From: Verrucomicrobiales bacterium
Lineage (GTDB): Bacteria; Verrucomicrobiota; Verrucomicrobiia; Verrucomicrobiales; V1-33
Length of the DNA stretch: 64,000 nt
NCBI GenBank assembly: GCA_018003315.1
Contig: JAGNEJ010000004.1
Coordinates: forward strand, 1-64,000
Reading direction: 5' to 3'
The notes under the pieces are model-generated. The model was not told where the DNA came from, ran no database searches, and saw only the letters and a list, made by a program, of their open reading frames with translations. Made by a program: the position numbers and the translations under genes. This document shows positions 30,082-44,318 of this stretch, piece after piece (position 1 is the stretch's first letter; each line of letters opens with the position of its first letter).

Positions 30082-32505
30082 CTAGGGTCCGCGGTCATTG
30101 GTCAGGTTTTTCCTCCATTGCGCCGCCCGTTTGCCGAGCAGTTCCGCCGGTGCGTCCACCAGGTAGTCGTAGCCCACGGGATTGAACTGCTTCAATTCCT
30201 CCAGGCTGGCGTGCCAGCGTCCGTCGCGTTTGCCGGGAAAGATGGGACGCTGGTGGTTCAGGTCATAGAAGCGCGCCCAGAACGGCCTTCCGTCCGGGCC
30301 GGGCGGAAGCCGGTGGGCGGCAAACCAGGCCAGGGCCGCCTCAATGGCCGCGACCACGGCATGGGGCGGTCTGGGAATTTCCATCAATGCCAGCACCGCA
30401 TCGACACTTTCGCTCCCGCTCAGCGAAGGAGGCTCAAACCCGCGGGCCGCCACCGGTTGCAGGGTGAACGGGTCATACTGGGCACACCAGACCGTCGGCT
30501 TGCCGCCGCATGACACCTGGAGGCGCAGCAGCACCCCGCGGGCAGCGGCCAGGCTGGCCGCGGCCCTTGCCTGGCGGGGCGCGTCCAGCCAGTGGCACTC
30601 CCCCGCCCCGGACGCGGCCAAGGCCAGCAGTTCCATGATGTTGCCCAGCGCGTTGTCGTTCAGCGTGACGGCATCATGGTAGGCACCCTCCAGCGGATAG
30701 CACTGGGGCCAGGCACCATTGGGGAACTGCGCCTGGAAAATGTAATCCAGCCCGCGTTCGATCGCGCTGCGGGTTTGCGCCGCCGGTTCCGCGGCCTCAC
30801 AGCGCAGCAGGAAGCGCAACTGCGCGGTGGTGGAGCGGTTGTCAAAGGTTCCGGCATAGCGGGACGGCCTGCTCTGCGAGGTCCACTGGGTGCCGGCGGG
30901 ACGCGGACCGGCAGCGTAGTCCACCGCCTTTGACCAGCCGCCGGACGGAAGTTGATAGGAAAGCACCGCCGCCTGCAACCGTTTTGCCTCCTCCGAGCGA
31001 AACCATTCCGCCGGCAGCCGGTTGTCGCATTTGAAATCGCGCCCTTCCGGCGCAATGCGCGGCGCGGCCAGCCCCGCTGTCTTCACCTCGTCCGCCAGCG
31101 CCGCATCATTTCTGCGCCTCCAGTCATCGGAACGCTCCAGCCAGTCTTTCCAGAGGTCCCGTTCGGCAGCCGGCAGCGCCGCGAGCCGTCCAGCATACCG
31201 GTCCATGGAATAGGGTGAGGGCGTGGGCATCGGCAGGTGCCTGTCGGCAAATGGAACCATCACCTTCCAATCCTCCAGCAGCACGTCGTGTCCTCCTTCC
31301 CGAATGAAATACCCCAGGCGGCCAGTCAGCGGTTTGCCGCAAGGAGGCCGCTGCGCCGGCAGCGCCACCTTGGCACCCAGCAGTTCAAAAACGGGTGCCG
31401 CCGCGGTCACACTGAGAAATTCACCCTCCGGATCACTCCAGGCGTCGGCTTCCGCGCTGGTGACCAGCAGCGCTCTGGGAGCAGTCAGGGCAAGCAGTTC
31501 ATGCTGGTCCACGGGCAGGGCTGCCTCGTTGTCCGCATAATGCGCAAAGCGTCCGGCGAACCAGTGAGGAAAGCGTTTTGTCAGATCGGCCACCGTTTCG
31601 CCCGCCAGATGCCTGCTCAGAGCAGCTCCTCCGGCACCGGAACCATTGGAAATGACCAGGGCAAAGCGCTCATCCTGCGCGGCGGCCCACAGGGCTGTTT
31701 TGCCAAGTCGGCTGAATCCAATCAAGCCCACGCGCCTGGCATCGATGCGCGGGTTGGTTTCCAGATAGTCCATCGCCCGGCTCAACCCCCACGCCCAGGC
31801 ACCAATGCTCCCCCAGTCGCCGGAACCGGGCTCCGCGGCCAGGCCGCGCACCCCTTCCTTCCAGCGGCCGGGTTCATCGGGTTCAATTTCCCCATAAGCC
31901 GCGGTGGCCACTGCCAGCCCCTGCTCCAGCACGTAGTCGATCTGCCACTGGTGGCGGTGCGCGCCCCGTCCGGCCTCCGTCGGCCGGTGATTTTCCAGCC
32001 GGTTGGAAAAAAGTCCCAGCGCCCAATGCTTCGGCAGCGGCAAGTCAGGATCCTCGATCACCGTATGGTTGCCATCAAAATTCAGCCCCAGCAGGATCGG
32101 CACCGGCCCGGGCACGTCATTGGGCAGGAAAACAAGCAGCTCCATCTGCCGTCCGTCCTCCCGCCCTTCAAACAACACCCCAACCCGCAGCCGGGTGGCC
32201 CGTCCGCCGCGCGTCGAGGGCAGTTCCTCACGCACTGAAAATTTCAAATTCGCCGGTCTGCCCAGCAGGGTGCGACCGTAGATTTCGGATTCAAACAGGC
32301 GCAGCAGTTCGGGTCGCCGCTTGCCCATCCATGCCTCCGGATCCTTCACGGCGCTGCCGTCCTGACAAATCAACGGATTCGGAAAGGGCAGTGCTGCGGT
32401 GCCGGTTCCATCTGTGGCTTCCGCTTGAAAGACTGGGAAAAAGGAACCCATGAACATGGTCAGCAAAGCCGAAGCAGCGGAGGCTGGACACGGGCAGCGG
32501 GTCAT
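30082..32505 (-). CDS. Secreted CE15 glucuronoyl esterase fused to PL10 pectate lyase
   Basis: A signal segment (SALLTMFMGSFFPVFQAEA) precedes two catalytic domains. Residues about 40-440 match carbohydrate-esterase family 15: the nucleophile motif GFSRLGKTALWAAAQDERF near residue 262, SNGSGAGGAAL, ALLVTSAEADAWSDPEGE and the catalytic histidine in REGGHDVLLEDW. Residues about 500-800 match family 10 pectate lyases: FPNGAWPQCYPL, TLNDNALGNIMELL, WCAQYDPFTLQPVAARGFEPPSLSGSESV and FWARFYDLNHQRPIF. Together they could remove ester linkages and cleave pectin-type polygalacturonate. The ATG at 32505 overlaps the stop codon of the upstream repeat-protein gene (ATGA), implying translational coupling. 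The enzyme should act outside the cytoplasm. Confidence 0.9.
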   Translation of the reverse strand: MTRCPCPASAASALLTMFMGSFFPVFQAEATDGTGTAALPFPNPLICQDGSAVKDPEAWMGKRRPELLRLFESEIYGRTLLGRPANLKFSVREELPSTRGGRATRLRVGVLFEGREDGRQMELLVFLPNDVPGPVPILLGLNFDGNHTVIEDPDLPLPKHWALGLFSNRLENHRPTEAGRGAHRHQWQIDYVLEQGLAVATAAYGEIEPDEPGRWKEGVRGLAAEPGSGDWGSIGAWAWGLSRAMDYLETNPRIDARRVGLIGFSRLGKTALWAAAQDERFALVISNGSGAGGAALSRHLAGETVADLTKRFPHWFAGRFAHYADNEAALPVDQHELLALTAPRALLVTSAEADAWSDPEGEFLSVTAAAPVFELLGAKVALPAQRPPCGKPLTGRLGYFIREGGHDVLLEDWKVMVPFADRHLPMPTPSPYSMDRYAGRLAALPAAERDLWKDWLERSDDWRRRNDAALADEVKTAGLAAPRIAPEGRDFKCDNRLPAEWFRSEEAKRLQAAVLSYQLPSGGWSKAVDYAAGPRPAGTQWTSQSRPSRYAGTFDNRSTTAQLRFLLRCEAAEPAAQTRSAIERGLDYIFQAQFPNGAWPQCYPLEGAYHDAVTLNDNALGNIMELLALAASGAGECHWLDAPRQARAAASLAAARGVLLRLQVSCGGKPTVWCAQYDPFTLQPVAARGFEPPSLSGSESVDAVLALMEIPRPPHAVVAAIEAALAWFAAHRLPPGPDGRPFWARFYDLNHQRPIFPGKRDGRWHASLEELKQFNPVGYDYLVDAPAELLGKRAAQWRKNLTNDRGP

Positions 32506-34812: not shown

Positions 34813-35478
34813 ATGATCGATTTTTCCAAGCGCTACATCGCGCCATCGGTGCTGGCGTCCGACTGGAGCCGGCTGGCGGAGGAATGCCGCCGTGCCATCC
34901 GCTGCGGTGCCGACTGGCTGCACCTCGACGTGATGGACGGTCACTTCGTGGACAACATTTCCTTCGGTCCAAATTTCGTCGCCACCATCCGCCGCTCCGA
35001 AGAAGCCTGGCTGGATGTGCACCTCATGATCACGCGGCCGGACCACTTCCTGGCACGGTTCATCAAGGCCGGCGCCAGCCACATCAGCGTGCATGTCGAG
35101 GCCGACCATGATGTCGCCCACACCCTGCGGCAGATCCGCGAAGCCGGACTAACCTGCGGACTGGCCATCAATGCGCAGACGGACTTTTCCGCCGCGGAGC
35201 CGTTCCTGGGACAAATCGACCTCTTCCTGGTGATGACCGTCAACGCCGGCTTTGGCGGACAGGAACTGATTCCCGCAACGCTCGAAAAAGTCCGGGCGGC
35301 AAAAAAAATCCGGGAACAACGCGGATTGAATTTCCACATCGAGGTCGATGGCGGCATTTATGCGCACACGCTGCCGTCCGCCCTGGAAGCTGGCGCCAAC
35401 GCCATCGTCGCCGGCACTGCCCTGTTTGCCGCACCGGACATGGCAGGGGAAATCGCGCGGTGGCGGGCGCTGCCCTGA
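34813..35478 (+). CDS. rpe: Ribulose-phosphate 3-epimerase
   Basis: The TIM-barrel signature residues are visible: APSVLASDWSRLAEE, ADWLHLDVMDGHFVDNISFGP, LDVHLMITRPD, HVEADHD, LVMTVNAGFGGQELIP, HIEVDGGIYAHTLPSALEAGANAIVAGTALF. Metal ligands (His, Asp, His, Asp) are all present. The enzyme interconverts ribulose-5-phosphate and xylulose-5-phosphate in the pentose phosphate pathway. Length is 221 residues, as usual. The start MIDFSKRYIAPSVLASD is unambiguous. Thirteen bases separate it from the downstream phosphopantoate ligase gene, so they are likely co-transcribed. Confidence 0.95.
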   Translation: MIDFSKRYIAPSVLASDWSRLAEECRRAIRCGADWLHLDVMDGHFVDNISFGPNFVATIRRSEEAWLDVHLMITRPDHFLARFIKAGASHISVHVEADHDVAHTLRQIREAGLTCGLAINAQTDFSAAEPFLGQIDLFLVMTVNAGFGGQELIPATLEKVRAAKKIREQRGLNFHIEVDGGIYAHTLPSALEAGANAIVAGTALFAAPDMAGEIARWRALP

Positions 35479-35491
35479 CAAGCCGGAACGG

Positions 35492-36220
35492 ATGCCTCCG
35501 CCTGACATGGTGCCCACATCCCACCCCCGTTACATTTCGCTGATGACCCGCGACCGGATCGTCGCGGGCGTCGAGCGCGGCGTGACCTCCATTCACGGAC
35601 TCATCGCCCATGGCCGCGGCGAGGCCTTCGACTATCTGCTGGGTGAACGCACCCACGGCTTCGCAGAGCAGGCCATCGCCGCCGCCGCGGCACTGCTGCG
35701 CTCCGCCAGGCATCCCGTCCTTTCCATCAACGGCAACGTGTGCGCTCTGGCCGCTGAAGAAATGGCTGCGCTGGCCACCGCATGCGGTGCGCCGCTTGAG
35801 GTGAACATTTTCCATACCTCGGATTCCCGGGAGCGCGCCATCCGCGACAGGCTGCTGGAGGCCGGGGCACCGGAAGTGCTGATGCCCAGCCGAACCCATG
35901 CGCTGGAGCACATCGACCACAACCGCCGCTGGGTGCATCCGGACGGAATCTGGACGGCGGACGTTGTCTTCGTGCCACTGGAGGACGGGGACCGCTGCCA
36001 GGCACTGGTCAAAAACGGCAAACAGGTCATCACCGTGGACCTGAACCCCATGTCCCGCACCGCCCGCACCGCCACCATCACCATTGTGGACAATCTGGTC
36101 CGCTGCCTGCCCCTGCTCATCGAGGCACTGCGGACGACGCCGACACCTCCAGTCACGCCATTCAACAATGCCCAGGCACTGCATCTGGCCGAACAGGCGA
36201 TTCGCAGCGGCACTCCTTGA
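35492..36220 (+). CDS. 4-Phosphopantoate--beta-alanine ligase (archaeal-type phosphopantothenate synthetase)
   Basis: The protein resembles the archaeal phosphopantothenate synthetase family along its full length. Supporting segments are PTSHPRYISLMTRDRIV, GVTSIHGLIAHGRGEAFDYL, LLGERTHGFAEQAI, VLSINGNVCALAAEEM, EVNIFHTSDSRERAI, WVHPDGIWTADVVFV, PLEDGDRCQALV and DLNPMSRTARTATITIVDN. In archaea it joins 4-phosphopantoate with beta-alanine using ATP, partnered by pantoate kinase, and replaces the bacterial PanC route to coenzyme A. Finding it in a bacterium is unusual. No pantoate kinase gene is nearby. The gene follows rpe by 13 bases. The start is either 35492 (MPPPDMVPTSH) or 35507 (MVPTSH); the conserved part begins at PTSHPRY either way. 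Confidence 0.85.
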   Translation: MPPPDMVPTSHPRYISLMTRDRIVAGVERGVTSIHGLIAHGRGEAFDYLLGERTHGFAEQAIAAAAALLRSARHPVLSINGNVCALAAEEMAALATACGAPLEVNIFHTSDSRERAIRDRLLEAGAPEVLMPSRTHALEHIDHNRRWVHPDGIWTADVVFVPLEDGDRCQALVKNGKQVITVDLNPMSRTARTATITIVDNLVRCLPLLIEALRTTPTPPVTPFNNAQALHLAEQAIRSGTP

Positions 36221-36326: not shown

Positions 36327-37307
36327 ATGCTCCGTTCCATTCTGTTATTCCTAGCCACCATCACGACGGGCCAGCCAGTCCGTTCCGCCGCCGCACCCGC
36401 GGAACCGATGCGGGTTGGCATCATCGGCCTGGACACTTCCCATGCCATTGAGTTTACGGCGATCCTGAACACGCCGCGGCCCGCGGGTGCGAATTACGGC
36501 TGCAAGGTGGTCGCTGCCTATCCAAAAGGCAGTCCTGACATTAAGGAAAGTGTTTCCCGCGTCCCGGAATACACGGAAAAACTGCGCTCCGCAGGCGTGG
36601 AAATTGTCGATTCCATCGACGCCCTGCTCGGCAAAGTGGATGCGGTGCTGCTGGAATCCAATGACGGCCGGCCCCACCTCGAACAGCTGCGCCCCTGCCT
36701 GAAGGCTGGAAAACCGGTTTTCATCGACAAGCCCATCGCCGCCTCCCTCGCGGATGTGCTGACCATTTTCCGCGAGGCCCGGGAGGCGAAGGCTCCGGTC
36801 TTTTCATCCTCCGGACTCCGCTACGCCAAGGCAACCCAGGAAGTGCGCAACGGCAGCCTGGGAAAAGTCCTCCATGCGGAAACCGTGAGTCCGGCGCACT
36901 TGGAACCGACTCATCCCGACCTGTTCTGGTATGGCATTCACGGCGTCGAAACCCTGATGACGCTCATGGGTCCCGGAGTGGATCGCGTCAAACGCGGAGT
37001 CACCTCCGATGGAAAAATCGAAGTCGTGGCCACCTGGAAGGATGGACGCACCGGCGTCTTCCGGGAAGGCCAGGGCTACAGCGCCACGATCAAAGGCGAA
37101 AAAGGCGACGGCCAGGCGGGAAAATTCGACGGTTATGAGCCGCTGGTGAAGGAAATTGCCGCATTTTTTCTCACCGGCAAATCGCCGGTCGCCGAGGCCG
37201 AAACCGTGGAAATCTATGCGCTCATGGAAGCAGCGGATGAAAGCAAGCGGCGCAGCGGAGCCGAGGTCACCCTGGCAGAAGTGCTCGCCAAAGCTGCGGC
37301 CAAGTAG
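36327..37307 (+). CDS. Secreted Gfo/Idh/MocA-family oxidoreductase
   Basis: An N-terminal hydrophobic segment (LRSILLFLATITTGQPVRSAAA) suggests export. The NAD(P) fold follows (RVGIIGLDTSHAIEFTAIL), with the family motif DKPIAASLADV at about residue 135 (normally EKP) and HGVETLMTLMGPGVDRV in the substrate domain. The C-terminal part (DGYEPLVKEIAAFFLTGKSP) is also typical. Such oxidoreductases act on sugars, inositols or uronates. The GxGxxG loop is altered to GLDTSH, as in a subgroup common in planctomycetes and verrucomicrobia, and catalysis is not assured. The gene is separated by 106 bases from the phosphopantoate ligase and is convergent with the tRNA-Sec-like gene. Confidence 0.8.
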   Translation: MLRSILLFLATITTGQPVRSAAAPAEPMRVGIIGLDTSHAIEFTAILNTPRPAGANYGCKVVAAYPKGSPDIKESVSRVPEYTEKLRSAGVEIVDSIDALLGKVDAVLLESNDGRPHLEQLRPCLKAGKPVFIDKPIAASLADVLTIFREAREAKAPVFSSSGLRYAKATQEVRNGSLGKVLHAETVSPAHLEPTHPDLFWYGIHGVETLMTLMGPGVDRVKRGVTSDGKIEVVATWKDGRTGVFREGQGYSATIKGEKGDGQAGKFDGYEPLVKEIAAFFLTGKSPVAEAETVEIYALMEAADESKRRSGAEVTLAEVLAKAAAK

Positions 37308-37696: not shown

Positions 37697-39211
37697 TCAG
37701 TGGCGACGTCCGAACATGCGCTTCAGCAGGCCGGGTTTGGCAGGCGTTGCGGACGTTGCGTCAGGGTCCGGTGCGGAGGCTGGAATTTCCACTGGCAGGC
37801 TTTGATTCCAGCCACCGCCCAAGGCCTTGACAAGGGCGACGGTGGCGATGAGCCGCTGGCCGCGGATTTGATCCAGCGCGCGTTTGGCGGCCAGGGCAGA
37901 GCGGCTGGCGTCGATCACTTCCAGGTAGGGGGAACTGCCGGCTTCATACCGTTTCATGGCAAAATTCACCGCATCCATCGCTGCTGCCCGCGCTTTCGTT
38001 TGCGAGGCAAACTGCGCGCTCAAATTCCGCAATGCTGCCAACTGGTTTTCCACGTCCGCAAATGCCGTGAGCACGCTCTGCCGGTAAAGTGCCAGGGCTT
38101 CATCGTGCGCGGCGCGCACCGCCTCCAGATTCGCACGGCCCCGGCCTCCGCTGAACAGCGGAAGGCTGACGCTGGGGCCGATGCCCCATTTCTGGCTCTC
38201 CGTCACAAACAGGGAGCTGAGTTCGCCGCTCAAAAAACCGCCATTGCCAATCAGCTTGATGGAGGGGAAAAACCACGCCTTGGCCACGCCGATCTGTGCA
38301 TTGGCAGAGGCGAGCCGGCGCTCGGCCTGGGCCACGTCGGACCGCCGTTCCAGGAGATCGCTCGGCAGTCCGGCGGGAATTTCCGGCGGCGCGCCCTGGC
38401 TGCCTTCCCGGGCCTGCAGATGGAATTCCGGCGCCAGCGTGCCGCTGAGCACGGCAATGGCGTTTTCAAGCTGGTCGCGCTGGGTTTGCAGTCCGGCCAG
38501 CTCGGTCCGGGCGGAAGCCAGCTCCGCTTCGCTCTGGGCCTGCTCCAGTTCGCTTCCCGCACCGGCTTTGACCTTGGCCGTGGCGATGTCCAGGGCCTTG
38601 CCCCGCCACATGACGGCCTCTCTGAGCGTTAGGATTTCCTCATCGACGGCCCGCAGCCGGAAGTAATTCTGCGCCACGTCGGCCTGGAGGCTCAGCAGTA
38701 CGCTCTGCATGGCCGCTGCGGCGGCAGCGGCGTCCGCGCGGGCTCCTTCAAACTGGCGGCGCACTTTTCCCCAGAGGTCGATCTCGTATGTCAGGTCCAG
38801 GGGCACGTCGAAGGACGCCCCCTCATAGCGCACTCCGTTGAGGGGAAACGCGGATGGCATGTTCGCGGAGGTCCCCTGATGCTGCGCGGTGGCCCCTGCG
38901 CCGAGGGCGGGAAAAAACTGGCTGCGGGCAATTCTGGCGGCGGCGCGGGCCTGGTCGAATCGGGCAACGGCAGCCTTCAGTTCCTGGTTGTGCCGGGTGG
39001 CAGAGTCCAGGAGTTGGTTGAGCGTTTTGTCCTTGAAAACGGTCCACCAGGCGCCGCGCGGCAGGGTTTCCAGCGGACGCATCTCGCGCCACTGCGGAGC
39101 CGCCTTGTAGTGCCTGGGTGCGACGGTCTCCGGCTTTTTGAAATCCGGACCGATCTGGGCCGCCGCGGGCACGGAAGCAAGTGTCAGGAGCAGGAGCAGT
39201 GGTGTCTTCAT
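37697..39211 (-). CDS. RND efflux outer-membrane channel (OprM/NodT family)
   Basis: The 504-residue protein is a TolC-like factor of the NodT/OprM group: IGPDFKKPETVAPRHYKA at the N-terminus, LNQLLDSATRHNQELKAAVAR, DLTYEIDLWGKVRRQFEGARA, LPSDLLERRSDVAQAERRLASANAQIGVAKA and YLEVIDASRSALAAKRALDQ. The usual lipobox cysteine before GPDF is absent (SVPAAAQIGPDF), so it is probably a plain signal-peptide protein (MKTPLLLLLTLASVPAAAQ) and not lipidated. The channel would join the RND pump across the outer membrane. Its ATG overlaps the RND gene's stop codon by 4 bases (ATGA). It is the last gene of the TetR-MFP-RND-OMF set. Confidence 0.93.
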   Translation of the reverse strand: MKTPLLLLLTLASVPAAAQIGPDFKKPETVAPRHYKAAPQWREMRPLETLPRGAWWTVFKDKTLNQLLDSATRHNQELKAAVARFDQARAAARIARSQFFPALGAGATAQHQGTSANMPSAFPLNGVRYEGASFDVPLDLTYEIDLWGKVRRQFEGARADAAAAAAAMQSVLLSLQADVAQNYFRLRAVDEEILTLREAVMWRGKALDIATAKVKAGAGSELEQAQSEAELASARTELAGLQTQRDQLENAIAVLSGTLAPEFHLQAREGSQGAPPEIPAGLPSDLLERRSDVAQAERRLASANAQIGVAKAWFFPSIKLIGNGGFLSGELSSLFVTESQKWGIGPSVSLPLFSGGRGRANLEAVRAAHDEALALYRQSVLTAFADVENQLAALRNLSAQFASQTKARAAAMDAVNFAMKRYEAGSSPYLEVIDASRSALAAKRALDQIRGQRLIATVALVKALGGGWNQSLPVEIPASAPDPDATSATPAKPGLLKRMFGRRH

Positions 39212-42200
39212 GGCTGGAGTGGCTGGTCAAGGACAGGTTCTGGCAGGGAAGCAGGGGGAGGATCCGGCTGGACAATTTGCGATTTTTTTCGCCCCAGATT
39301 CATGAGCACGACGTAGAACACCGGCGTGAGGAAGAGCCCGAGGAAGGTGACTCCGATCATGCCGGCAAAAACGGCACTGCCCATGGCGCGGCGCATTTCG
39401 GCTCCGGCTCCGTGGCTGACCACCAGCGGATACACCCCGGCGATGAAGGCGATGCTGGTCATGAGAATGGGGCGCAGGCGCAGGCGGCAGGCTTCCAGCG
39501 CGGCGGCCACGGGACTCATTCCCTCATGCTGCTTTTCCCGTGCGAATTCCACAATGAGGATGGCATTCTTGCAGGCCAGTCCGATGAGAACGATGAACCC
39601 GATCTGGGTGAAAATGTTATTGTCGCCGCCGGCAATGAACACCCCTGCCAGGGCAAAGAGCAGGCAGAGCGGCACGATGAGAATGATCGCCAGCGGGAGG
39701 CGCAGGCTTTCATACTGCGCGGCCAGCACCATGAAGACCAGCAGGATGCACAGCGGATAAATGTAGATGGCGGTGTTGCCGGCGATGACTTTTTGATAGA
39801 CCAGGTCGGTCCAGTCGGCTTCGAATCCCGGCGGCAGCACCTGTTTTGCCAGGGAGGCGATTTTTTCCTCCGCCTGGGCGGAACTGAGCGGCGGCAGCGG
39901 CGCGCCGTTGAAGTCTGCAGCCAGAAAGCCGTTGTAGTGGGTGACCCGGTCCGGGCCGTTGACTTCGCGGACGTTGACCATGGAACCGATGGGTGCCATG
40001 GCACCGGAGGCGTTGCGGACTTTCAGCCGGGTGATGTCGGAAATGTCGTCACGGTATTGCGCTTCCGCCTGCACCACCACTTGATAGGTGCGCCCGAAAC
40101 GGTTGAAATCATTCGCATAGAGCGAGCCAAGATTCACCTGCAGTGCTTCATACAGCGACTGCAATGGCACCCCCTGTGCCTTGGCCTTTTCGCGATCCAC
40201 GCTGGCTTCCAACTGCGGCACGTTCACCGTATATCCGGTGAACGGCTGGGCGAAGGAGCCGGACTGATGCGCGGCTCCCAGCAGGGCCATGGCCGCTCCG
40301 TAGGTGGCTTCGTAGCCCTGGTCGCCCCGGTCGGTGATCATCATTTTGAATCCGCCAATGGTCCCCAGGCCGTTGACCGGAGGCGGCTGGAAGACGGCGA
40401 CGAAGGCTTCCTCAATGGCGCTGAACTTCGCATTGAGCGCACCGGCGATTTCCGCTCCGCTGAGTCCGGGACCGCGGCGATTTTCAAATGCGTCCAGGGA
40501 GACGAACACGATGCCCGCATTCGAACTCATGGAAAATCCCTGAATGGACAAACCGGGAAAGGCCACCGTTCCGGAAACGCCCGGCTGTTTCAGGGCGATG
40601 TCCGTGAGCTTGCGGATGGCGGCCTCGGTGCGGTCGAGCGAGGCGGCATCCGGAAGCTGGGCAAAGGCGACCAGATACTGTTTGTCCTGCGTGGGAACAA
40701 AACCGCCGGGGACCACCTCGAACGCTTTCCAAGTCAGGAAAACCAGCCCGCCGTACACCAGCAGAGCCACCGCCGCCCGCCGGGCGATGACGCGGACCAC
40801 GCGGACATAACGGTCGCCAAACCAGGAAAAAAAGCGGTTGAACGGGCGGAAGATCCAGCCCAGCAGCCGGTCCAGAATCCGGCTCACCACATCTTTTTTG
40901 GCCCGGTGGTCACGCAGTAGCAGCGCGGAAAGCGCCGGGCTGAGCGTCAGGGAATTGAAGGCGGAAATGACCGTGCTGATGGCGATGGTGACGGCAAACT
41001 GCCGGTAGAACTGCCCGGTTAGGCCGCTGATGAATGCCGTGGGAATGAACACGGCGCACAGCACCAGCGCGGTGGCAATGATGGGCCCGGTGACCTCTTT
41101 CATGGCCTGGGCGGTGGCTTCGCGCGGGGTCAGCCCCAGGGCGATGTTTCGTTCCACGTTTTCCACCACGACGATGGCGTCGTCCACGACGATGCCGATG
41201 GCCAGCACCAGGCCGAAGAGGGAGAGGTTGTTGATGGAAAATCCCAGCAGGTGCATGACCGCGAACGTGCCGACCAGTGACACCGGCACCGCGGCCAGCG
41301 GAATGATCGACGCCCGCCAGGTCTGCAAAAACAGCACCACCACCAGCACCACCAGGCCGATCGCTTCCAGCAGGGTGGCCACCACGGCATTGATCGATTT
41401 TTTCACGAAGACCGTCGGGTCATAGACCACGTCGAAGTCGATCCCTTCCGGAAATTTCGTTTTCAGCTCCGCCATCCGCTGCCGCACGGACTGGGAAAGC
41501 GCCAACGCATTGGACCCGGGAAGCTGGAAGATGGGAATGCCCACGGCTTCCCGGTTGTTCAAAAGACTGCGCAGCGCGTATTCGCCGGACCCCAGCTCCA
41601 CGCGGGCCACCTCTGAAAGCGTGGTGATCTCCCCGTGCGACCCGGTTTTGACGATGATGGCGCCGAATTCCTCCTCGGTCACCAGGCGCCCCTTGGCATT
41701 GATGACCAGCTCGAACGGCACGGTGCCGGAAACCGGCTGCTGGCCGATGGCACCGGCGGCCACCTGCACGTTTTGTTCGCGGATGGCATTGACGACATCC
41801 CCGGCGGACACTCCCATGGACGCGGCCTTGTCAGGATCCAGCCAGATCCGCATGGCGTAGTCGCCGCCCCCAAACAACTGCACCGAGCCCACGCCAGGCA
41901 GTCTGGCCAGCTCGTCCTTCACGTTGAGGTTCGCAAAATTCCGCAGATAGAGCGCGTCGTAGCGCCCGTTGGGTGAAAACAAATGCACCACCATGGTCAG
42001 GTCTGGCGAGGATTTCACCGTGGTCACGCCGAAGCGTCGCACTTCCTCCGGCAGCTTCGGCAGCGCCTGGGAAACGCGGTTCTGCACCTGCACCTGGGCC
42101 ATGTCGATGTTCGTTCCGACCTTGAACGTCACCGTCAGGGTCATCGTCCCGTTGGAGGTGCTCTGCGAGGACATGTAGAGCATGTTTTCCACCCCGTTGA

Positions 42201-42414
42201 TGATCTGTTCCAACGGCGAGGCAACGGTTTCCGCAATCGTTTTTGGATTGGCACCGGGATAAGTGGCGGTGACGATGACCGTGGGCGGGGTGACTTCCGG
42301 ATACTCGCTCACCGGCAGACGCCAGAGCGAAATGGCGCCCAGCAGGAAAATGAGCATGGACAGCACCCCGGCGAAAATGGGCCGGGTGATGAAAAAATGG
42401 GAAAGCGTCTTCAC
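39208..42414 (-). CDS. RND multidrug efflux permease (AcrB/HAE1 family)
   Basis: At 1068 residues, with the AcrB-like first segment MKTLSHFFITRPIFAGVLSML, VVTATYPGANPKTIAETVASPLEQIINGVENMLYMSS, and transmembrane repeats including FSINNLSLFGLVLAIGIVVDDAIVVVENVER (the proton-relay Asp pair in VDDAIV), it is a hydrophobe/amphiphile efflux-1 pump. The central segments LPGVGSVQLFGGGDYAMRIWLDPDKAA and NDFNRFGRTYQVVVQAEAQYRDD are typical of MexF/AcrB-type pumps. It sits in the inner membrane and exports drugs or other amphiphiles with proton influx. It lies 29 bases after the membrane-fusion protein gene and overlaps the OMF gene. Confidence 0.96.
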   Translation of the reverse strand: MKTLSHFFITRPIFAGVLSMLIFLLGAISLWRLPVSEYPEVTPPTVIVTATYPGANPKTIAETVASPLEQIINGVENMLYMSSQSTSNGTMTLTVTFKVGTNIDMAQVQVQNRVSQALPKLPEEVRRFGVTTVKSSPDLTMVVHLFSPNGRYDALYLRNFANLNVKDELARLPGVGSVQLFGGGDYAMRIWLDPDKAASMGVSAGDVVNAIREQNVQVAAGAIGQQPVSGTVPFELVINAKGRLVTEEEFGAIIVKTGSHGEITTLSEVARVELGSGEYALRSLLNNREAVGIPIFQLPGSNALALSQSVRQRMAELKTKFPEGIDFDVVYDPTVFVKKSINAVVATLLEAIGLVVLVVVLFLQTWRASIIPLAAVPVSLVGTFAVMHLLGFSINNLSLFGLVLAIGIVVDDAIVVVENVERNIALGLTPREATAQAMKEVTGPIIATALVLCAVFIPTAFISGLTGQFYRQFAVTIAISTVISAFNSLTLSPALSALLLRDHRAKKDVVSRILDRLLGWIFRPFNRFFSWFGDRYVRVVRVIARRAAVALLVYGGLVFLTWKAFEVVPGGFVPTQDKQYLVAFAQLPDAASLDRTEAAIRKLTDIALKQPGVSGTVAFPGLSIQGFSMSSNAGIVFVSLDAFENRRGPGLSGAEIAGALNAKFSAIEEAFVAVFQPPPVNGLGTIGGFKMMITDRGDQGYEATYGAAMALLGAAHQSGSFAQPFTGYTVNVPQLEASVDREKAKAQGVPLQSLYEALQVNLGSLYANDFNRFGRTYQVVVQAEAQYRDDISDITRLKVRNASGAMAPIGSMVNVREVNGPDRVTHYNGFLAADFNGAPLPPLSSAQAEEKIASLAKQVLPPGFEADWTDLVYQKVIAGNTAIYIYPLCILLVFMVLAAQYESLRLPLAIILIVPLCLLFALAGVFIAGGDNNIFTQIGFIVLIGLACKNAILIVEFAREKQHEGMSPVAAALEACRLRLRPILMTSIAFIAGVYPLVVSHGAGAEMRRAMGSAVFAGMIGVTFLGLFLTPVFYVVLMNLGRKKSQIVQPDPPPASLPEPVLDQPLQP

Positions 42415-42443
42415 GGATTCAGGGAATGCAGCCGATCATGGAG

Positions 42444-43607
42444 TTAGGATTTGGCAGCCGCGGCGGCTGCCTTCGGCGCGGCGGGTTCCGCCGGAGTTAC
42501 GGGCTGCCCGGGCTGGTGCACCCTGGCACCGCCATTGACGATGATTTTCTCCCCGGCCTTCAACCCCTCGCGAATGATGCGTCGGCCATCAATGATCGGC
42601 CCCAGCACCACCGAGCGGTACTGCGCCAGGCTCTTTTCATCGACCATCATCACATAGGAGCGTCCGAGATCCGTGCGCACCGCCGTCGGATCAATGGCGG
42701 GTGCGGAATACTGCCCGGTCATCGGAAGCCGAATGCGGGCGAACAAGCCGGGTGTCAGCAATCCGTCGGCGTTGGAAAACTCCGCCCGCACTGCCATGCT
42801 GCCGGTGGCGGGGTCGAGCCGGTTGTCGAGGGACTCCACCCAGCCGCGGTGCGGAAAGCCGTCTTCCCCGCTGAGCTGGAGTTCCACCGGGACGCGCCCC
42901 TTGTCGTCCTTCAGGGTCTTCCCAGCCCTGACCAGCGCCTGGTATTTCAGCAGGGAACTTTCATCGACCGCGGCATAGACATGCATCGGATCCACCGACA
43001 CCAGGGTGGTCAACTGCGTGCTTTGACTCACCGTGTTGCCGGTAGTGACCAGGGCGCGGCTCACCCGTCCGGCAATGGGTGCGGTGACTTCGCAGTAACC
43101 GAGATCAATTTCCGCGGAACGCAGTGCGGCCCGGGCTGCGGCCAGCGCGGCTTGGGCCTGCAGGTGCAGGCTTTCCCGGCCTTCCGACTGCTCCGGGGAG
43201 ATGGCCTTGGCCGCAAGCAGGGCCGGCGCACGGTCGAATTCCCGCTGGGCGGAAAACGCCGCCGCTTCCGCACGCTTCAGCTCGCTGCGCGCCACCTCCG
43301 TCTTGGCCAGCAGGGGTTCCTTGTCGAGTACAAACAACACCGCATCTTTGGCCACGATGCTGCCCGCCTGGAACCGCACCTCCTGCACCATTCCGGCAAT
43401 CCGCGGGCGCAGTTCAACGGTTTCCACCGCGGCCACCCGTCCGGTGAATTCCTGCCATTCCACCACCGGCTTTTCCTCCACCACATTCATGGTGACGGCT
43501 GCCGGCATCATCGGCGCTCCCCCTCCCCCCTGCGAGCGATGGCAGGCGGTAAGCAGAACTGCAAACGAAGCGGCAGTGGCAAGGACGGGAAGCGCAGAGA
43601 GTTTCAT
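42444..43607 (-). CDS. RND efflux periplasmic adaptor lipoprotein (membrane fusion protein)
   Basis: The N-terminus is a lipoprotein signal (MKLSALPVLATAASFAVLLTACHRS, lipobox LTAC at residues about 19-22). After it come the AcrA/MexE elements: EFTGRVAAVETVELRPRIAGMVQEV, RAGSIVAKDAVLFVLD-type barrel-sandwich residues, a helical hairpin rich in alanine, ITAPIAGRVSRALV-like DLGYCEVTAPIAGRVS, and LFARIRLPMTG. The poly-Ala-Lys tail is low complexity. The adaptor links the inner-membrane pump with the outer-membrane channel. The start at 43607 gives the lipobox; the earlier in-frame ATG at 43673 lies within the TetR gene. A putative TetR operator lies just upstream at 43639-43652. Confidence 0.93.
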   Translation of the reverse strand: MKLSALPVLATAASFAVLLTACHRSQGGGGAPMMPAAVTMNVVEEKPVVEWQEFTGRVAAVETVELRPRIAGMVQEVRFQAGSIVAKDAVLFVLDKEPLLAKTEVARSELKRAEAAAFSAQREFDRAPALLAAKAISPEQSEGRESLHLQAQAALAAARAALRSAEIDLGYCEVTAPIAGRVSRALVTTGNTVSQSTQLTTLVSVDPMHVYAAVDESSLLKYQALVRAGKTLKDDKGRVPVELQLSGEDGFPHRGWVESLDNRLDPATGSMAVRAEFSNADGLLTPGLFARIRLPMTGQYSAPAIDPTAVRTDLGRSYVMMVDEKSLAQYRSVVLGPIIDGRRIIREGLKAGEKIIVNGGARVHQPGQPVTPAEPAAPKAAAAAAKS

Positions 43608-43638
43608 GGCAGGAGCAAACGAAGTTACGAAGATTAAA

Positions 43639-43652
43639 GTTGACTGGTTGGT
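43639..43652 (-). promoter_or_regulatory. Putative TetR operator upstream of the RND adaptor gene
   Basis: On the minus strand the sequence is ACCAACCAGTCAAC. It matches ACCGACCGGTCAAA at 44319-44332, upstream of the tetR gene, at 11 of 14 positions. It lies 32 bases before the start codon of the adaptor gene, where a repressor could block transcription. Confidence 0.5.
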
Positions 43653-43669
43653 AGCATTTTCGACAAAAA

Positions 43670-44275
43670 TCAAGCCACCGCCACCTGGACTCCGAGAATT
43701 TCCAGGATGCCGGATTCGATTTCACAAATCGGCTGCAGCGTGTTGAAAATGCGGGCCCGGGTATGGGTGCCTTCGATGTAGTCCTGCAAAATCCGCGCCT
43801 TCCTTGCAGGGGCCGGAGCATCGATTTCCCCGGCGGCATGGGCATCCCGGATGGCGCTTTCCAGATAGCGCAATTGAGTGTCCAGCAGCTCCTCCACTTT
43901 GGCGCGGAGTTTTGACTCGCGGGTGCCGATTTCACTGCCCAAGGAAAACAGCGGACAGCCGCAGACGCACCCGGCTTCCTGGAGCCGTTTTTCCTGAAAT
44001 TCCAAGTCCCAGCGCGCCATCCGGCACAGTCGCTCCAGCGGTGGAACCGCAGGCGAAAAAATCGCGTCCATCTTCGGTTTGGCCTCGTGCCACATCGCTT
44101 CGAGCGCCGCAATCGCCAAATCCTCCTTGGAAACAAAATGGTGGTAAAAGCTTCCCTTTTTCACCGCGCTCCCCTCACAGATGCGGTCCACGCCCGTGGC
44201 ATGATAGCTGGTCCGCCAGATCAGGTCGGCGGCGGTGTGGATCAGGCGGGCTTTGGTGTCAGAATGGCGGGGCAT
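43670..44275 (-). CDS. TetR/AcrR-family transcriptional regulator of the efflux operon
   Basis: The 201-residue protein starts with a TetR helix-turn-helix: DTKARLIHTAADLIWRTSYHATGVDRICEGSAVKKGSFYHHFVSKEDLAIAAL. The remainder is the variable ligand domain with a Cys pair (QEAGCVCGCPLFSLGSE), typical of the YxaF/AcuR-like group that senses small molecules. It is encoded at the head of the efflux operon on the same strand, 62 bases before the adaptor gene, so it probably represses the pump and itself. Two candidate operators flank it (43639-43652 and 44319-44332). The start MPRHSDTKARL at 44275 precedes the HTH. Confidence 0.9.
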   Translation of the reverse strand: MPRHSDTKARLIHTAADLIWRTSYHATGVDRICEGSAVKKGSFYHHFVSKEDLAIAALEAMWHEAKPKMDAIFSPAVPPLERLCRMARWDLEFQEKRLQEAGCVCGCPLFSLGSEIGTRESKLRAKVEELLDTQLRYLESAIRDAHAAGEIDAPAPARKARILQDYIEGTHTRARIFNTLQPICEIESGILEILGVQVAVA

Positions 44276-44318
44276 GAAATCGACTTTTGCAGGAGAGCGG
44301 CGATTCAAACCCAAACAA

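Follow-up and report, generated by a model that had tools for sequence, protein, structure and literature searches.

Coenzyme A in the verrucomicrobial genome studied here (G000), and in its taxonomic family, is in all likelihood (probability about 0.9, judged from sequence comparison) made via pantoate kinase (PoK) and then phosphopantothenate synthetase (PPS), through genes that would have been transferred in while PanC and CoaX were lost. In the proposed scheme, pantoate supplied by PanB and a putative ketopantoate reductase would first be phosphorylated by pantoate kinase (pantoate + ATP -> 4-phosphopantoate), and PPS would then join the product to beta-alanine furnished by the bacterial pyruvoyl enzyme PanD (4-phosphopantoate + beta-alanine + ATP -> 4'-phosphopantothenate), leaving the final steps to CoaB, CoaC and CoaD as usual. 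The ancestral bacterial order would have been condensation by PanC followed by phosphorylation by CoaX, both genes of which the family would have lost. In Thermococcus kodakarensis it is established that phosphorylation precedes condensation (PMC6650551). The scheme draws on observed gene content, homology, residue conservation and a pattern of mutual exclusion, from which homology allows enzyme activities and flux to be predicted.

The PPS gene lies in the window, the whole 64,000-nucleotide stretch of DNA that was analysed, between two genes given for context only:

34813..35478, plus strand: rpe, ribulose-phosphate 3-epimerase (TIGR01163, 241.5 bits; PF00834)
35492..36220, plus strand: PPS, 4-phosphopantoate--beta-alanine ligase (phosphopantothenate synthetase), 242 aa, complete, with an ATG start (PF02006, NF041123, PDB 3wdk)
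36327..37307, plus strand: Gfo/Idh/MocA-family oxidoreductase (PF01408, 1.3e-10), outside the pathway

Judged by its sequence, the window gene is a real, full-length PPS. In profile searches it matches PF02006 with 202.5 bits against a cut-off of 26.4 (5e-60) and the PPS subfamily model NF010324 with 314.2 bits (cut-off 227), while the equivalog model for the archaeal 4-phosphopantoate--beta-alanine ligase, NF041123, is passed narrowly, with 302.4 bits against 300. Its relatives of solved structure are 3wdk (4-phosphopantoate--beta-alanine ligase, 1.4e-64) and 4mb0 (phosphopantothenate synthetase, 2.1e-63). Alignment shows that 62 of the 64 columns that are near-invariant in archaea (at least 93% conserved among 34 archaeal homologues) are retained, the exceptions being V79I and A205C. 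The original prediction of an archaeal-type PPS at this position is thus borne out by PF02006, NF041123 and the structural relatives alike, and neither of the signs that would speak against it, a failed profile match or missing conserved residues, was seen. A working enzyme catalysing the ATP-dependent condensation of 4-phosphopantoate and beta-alanine is therefore predicted.

The genome carries a single PPS copy, whose GC content (65.6%) and GC3 (78.6%) resemble those of neighbouring genes, on a contig of 120,948 bp whose DNA looks bacterial. Since related genomes are mostly metagenome-assembled and contamination of the G000 assembly is estimated at 2.56%, archaeal DNA contaminating a metagenome-assembled genome might account for the gene, but this explanation is refuted in practice and its chances are negligible: PPS begins just past a bacterial rpe on this 121-kb contig with matching GC3, and it recurs through the family as one clade of the PPS tree.

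The immediate surroundings carry little information about function. The order is uppS and rpe upstream and a GFO_IDH_MocA-domain gene downstream, with a gap of 13 nt from the rpe stop to the PPS start, and PPS and rpe are possibly co-transcribed in G000. The original prediction described an operon-like arrangement between rpe and a Gfo/Idh/MocA gene; the neighbours are as it stated, but they are not conserved around PPS in other family genomes. Within flanks of 1.5-6 kb, neither the 11 other family loci nor L058, L059 or L067 had rpe in the vicinity of PPS, and the Gfo/Idh gene was not near PPS in the relatives' loci. A conserved operon with rpe, uppS or Gfo/Idh was accordingly rejected, none of them adjoining PPS in the other family loci, and because the order is not conserved it gives no functional signal beyond the possible co-transcription with rpe in G000. 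Elsewhere in the window, a single 807-aa open reading frame (30082-32505, minus strand) joins a glucuronoyl-esterase-like domain (PF22244) to a pectic acid lyase domain (PF09492), and positions 37697-44314 (minus strand) hold what appears by eye to be an RND efflux set, with TolC-like, AcrB-like and AcrA-like proteins and a TetR-like regulator.

The partner enzyme is encoded elsewhere. A homologue of the GHMP-type pantoate kinase lies on another contig, between purK and moaA (G000:C12:49273-50025), which leaves PoK unlinked to PPS in G000. It scores 135.7 bits against NF040725, below the equivalog cut-off of 380 bits, a threshold that must be narrow because the archaeal control genomes all fall short of it as well; the assignment as PoK is accordingly made from homology and genome pattern rather than from this cut-off. 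The nearest solved structure is the pantoate kinase 6jbc (8.6e-16, residues 1-249 aligned), the enzyme from Thermococcus kodakarensis. With chimeric E. coli protein queries, G000 gave matches for PanB, PanD, CoaB, CoaC and CoaD, and Pfam confirmed PanB and PanD, the latter as PF02261 (2e-33); these searches are read for presence or absence only, single-sequence queries being less sensitive than profiles. No match to panC, coaX or coaA was found in G000, the search for pantothenate kinase covering CoaX and CoaA, and a chimeric query including E. coli CoaA found no CoaA in G000 or in the family genomes searched. The expectation of an archaeal-like pathway should a pantoate kinase be present is therefore supported, PoK being found and PanC, CoaX and CoaA not, and the term "mixed" that was originally applied to the pathway is apt, its beta-alanine enzyme being the bacterial PanD.

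Some details of gene arrangement accompany these assignments. In G000, coaB and coaC sit on separate contigs (C11:25610-26224 and C28:12291-12779), whereas the two lie side by side in G399, G401 and G187. A FolK domain (PF01288) and PanB (PF02548) share one uninterrupted 418-aa frame in G000 (C31; L190 578-1834, minus strand), a possible FolK-PanB fusion, and PanB of G388 likewise lies in a long open frame of 521 aa.

The lack of PanC would also be expected of a pantothenate auxotroph in which PPS and PoK serve other roles. This is very improbable: with neither CoaX nor CoaA found, imported pantothenate would have no known entry enzyme, PanB and PanD are retained, and the near-complete preservation of the archaeal PPS residues together with the joint retention of PoK and PPS points to the same function as in archaea.

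The distribution of the genes also argues for replacement by PoK and PPS. PPS is present in 12 of the 13 genomes of the family, the exception being a genome that is 77% complete, and PoK in 11, the two lacking it being 75% and 77% complete. PanC (PF02569) and CoaX (PF03309) were each found in 0 of the 13, whereas other families of the order have PanC in all 24 genomes examined, each above 315 bits, and CoaX in all eight tested. This difference shows a loss that has become fixed family-wide. The 13 genomes form one clade and their counts are not independent; all are drafts, in which an absence is weak evidence in any single genome but not across 13. Within a sample of 387 genomes from the phylum, PPS occurs in only three besides G000. 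By gene content, then, this is a family-wide replacement of PanC and PanK by PoK and PPS and not a stray gene. Both genes would have entered by transfer from a source beyond the order, ahead of the divergence of the sampled family members, and been inherited since.

The same pattern extends to other bacteria. When 84,980 species genomes were scanned, 548 PPS relatives were confirmed, of which the nearest 80 were used. Three of the family's PPS proteins proved identical, across the aligned part, to those of records labelled Verrucomicrobiales bacterium and Verrucomicrobiaceae bacterium, which puts the lineage in Verrucomicrobiales. Among the 80 relatives are Poribacteria, Gammaproteobacteria, Gemmatimonadaceae, Latescibacterota, Chloroflexi, Cloacimonadota, Spirochaetes and Planctomycetota, as well as several CPR groups, Nano- and Woesearchaeota and other archaea, and in many of these 80 PoK lies directly upstream of PPS. 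Poribacteria (L062-L066 and other loci) supply many of the nearest matches among the same 80; their PoK mostly does not adjoin PPS and was located elsewhere in the genome where tested. No PPS was found on mobile carriers, in searches of IMG/VR for close patterns and of 72,556 plasmids. PanC rose above its cut-off in none of the 34 PPS-bearing genomes tested, from the family and from many phyla beyond it, so that PPS and PanC are mutually exclusive in every lineage tested; in the 27 such genomes taken from the species-genome scan, CoaX was found in none and PoK in 24. This exclusion bears on the idea that PPS works alongside divergent, undetected PanC and PanK in a redundant mixed pathway. Profile searches can miss very divergent homologues and type II PanK lay outside the search, but PanC is otherwise easily detected, as its scores throughout the rest of the order attest, and its exclusion of PPS holds across many phyla, which makes such redundancy most unlikely.

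The phylogenetic comparison suggested with the original prediction places the PPS of the family as one clade (98/94) within a bacterial clade (97/94), outside which the nearest sequences are those of Nano- and Woesearchaeota. Spirochaetes, Cloacimonadota and two genomes of a distant family of the same phylum (f34) fall elsewhere, among sequences of Thermoproteota, Thaumarchaeota and Asgard archaea. A single origin of bacterial PPS was rejected by the AU test (p = 7e-4), as was a PPS clade uniting the window family with f34 (p = 1.2e-4); judged from these trees, PPS was acquired by bacteria more than once. The PoK tree likewise has the family as a single clade (100/96), which groups with two Nanoarchaeota sequences (93/86, falling to 74/50 without long branches), and joining it to other bacterial PoK was rejected (AU p = 0.0016). 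As the family's PPS groups with other bacteria and its PoK does not, the two genes may come from different sources. It should be noted that the AU tests were run after the trees had been seen, that some branches are long and that the trees are unrooted, so that either side, DPANN archaea or bacteria, may have been the donor.

The two f34 genomes, G046 and G320, present a different arrangement, in which PPS and a CoaX-family gene are separated by 7-8 nt:

L006 7681-9181 (G046:C1): PPS and CoaX-like gene
L007 4669-6167 (G320:C68): PPS and CoaX-like gene

PanC was searched for in both genomes and not found, and both give only weak GHMP matches to the PoK model. A GHMP-type PoK hidden among the three weak matches in G046 was considered and rejected, as these are adjacent GHMP-family genes, including MVD, read as a mevalonate set. 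The CoaX-like protein matches TIGR00671 with 88.7 bits (cut-off 58.2), and AlphaFold models it (pLDDT 83.7) in the CoaX fold, with CoaX 2h3g as the best PDB match. The D-x-GN, G-x-DR and TGG motifs are kept, and D-x-GTA, GG-x-I-x-PG and T-x-x-LP are altered, the Asp before GTA being replaced and the GG and LP lost; the proteins sit on a very long branch. The simplest reading, to which we would give even odds, is that in this candidate a type III pantothenate kinase has become a pantoate kinase. Alternatively, the protein may be a CoaX homologue without catalytic activity, some other gene acting as pantoate kinase. If the conversion to a pantoate kinase is true, it would represent a third way to 4'-phosphopantothenate, with pantoate kinase invented independently. 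In three genomes of the same order as f34 (G126, G438 and G439) PanC and CoaX are normal, and PPS was not found. In another, G349, the PPS at a contig end (L008 1-1387, G349:C145) occupies two frames, frameshifted or fragmentary, and adjoins an intact GHMP-type PoK homologue, which may reflect draft error or decay.

An entire bacterial family, along with members of several other phyla, appears to have exchanged an essential segment of central metabolism for one in which two steps are reversed, offering a clean, testable case of cross-domain pathway replacement. Such bacteria would probably do without free pantothenate (vitamin B5), neither making it nor using it; if so, annotation pipelines based on PanC and PanK would wrongly call them auxotrophs, and PanK-dependent pantothenate-analogue drugs should not act on them. 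In 2019 PoK and PPS were described as "unique to the archaea" (PMC6650551). Searches of the open-licence literature for pantoate kinase together with Verrucomicrobi*, or for 4-phosphopantoate, returned nothing relevant. The enzymes belong to known families; what appears new, measured against that literature, is that a bacterial family, and several phyla, use them in a fixed and exclusive way.

Compared with known systems, the window family shares with archaeal PPS (3wdk, 4mb0) and PoK (T. kodakarensis, 6jbc) the protein families, the near-invariant residues and the pairing of the two enzymes. The absence of PanC and PanK is likewise common to both (PMC6650551). It differs from archaea in its bacterial host, in a pyruvoyl PanD that replaces the archaeal decarboxylase as the source of beta-alanine, in the unlinked positions of PoK and PPS, and in the placement of its enzymes in a bacterial/DPANN branch away from mainstream archaeal sequences. 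Closer at hand are the PoK-PPS pairs of Gammaproteobacteria, Gemmatimonadota, Latescibacterota, some Poribacteria and Levyibacteriota, the nearest PPS relatives among the matches listed; all but Levyibacteriota share the 97/94 bacterial PPS clade with the window family. These lineages likewise lack PanC and CoaX, but their two genes are adjacent, whereas those of the window family are unlinked and its PoK falls outside their PoK clade. The f34 genomes resemble the family in having PPS without PanC, yet they acquired PPS separately and, in place of a GHMP-type PoK, carry a remodelled CoaX homologue next to it.
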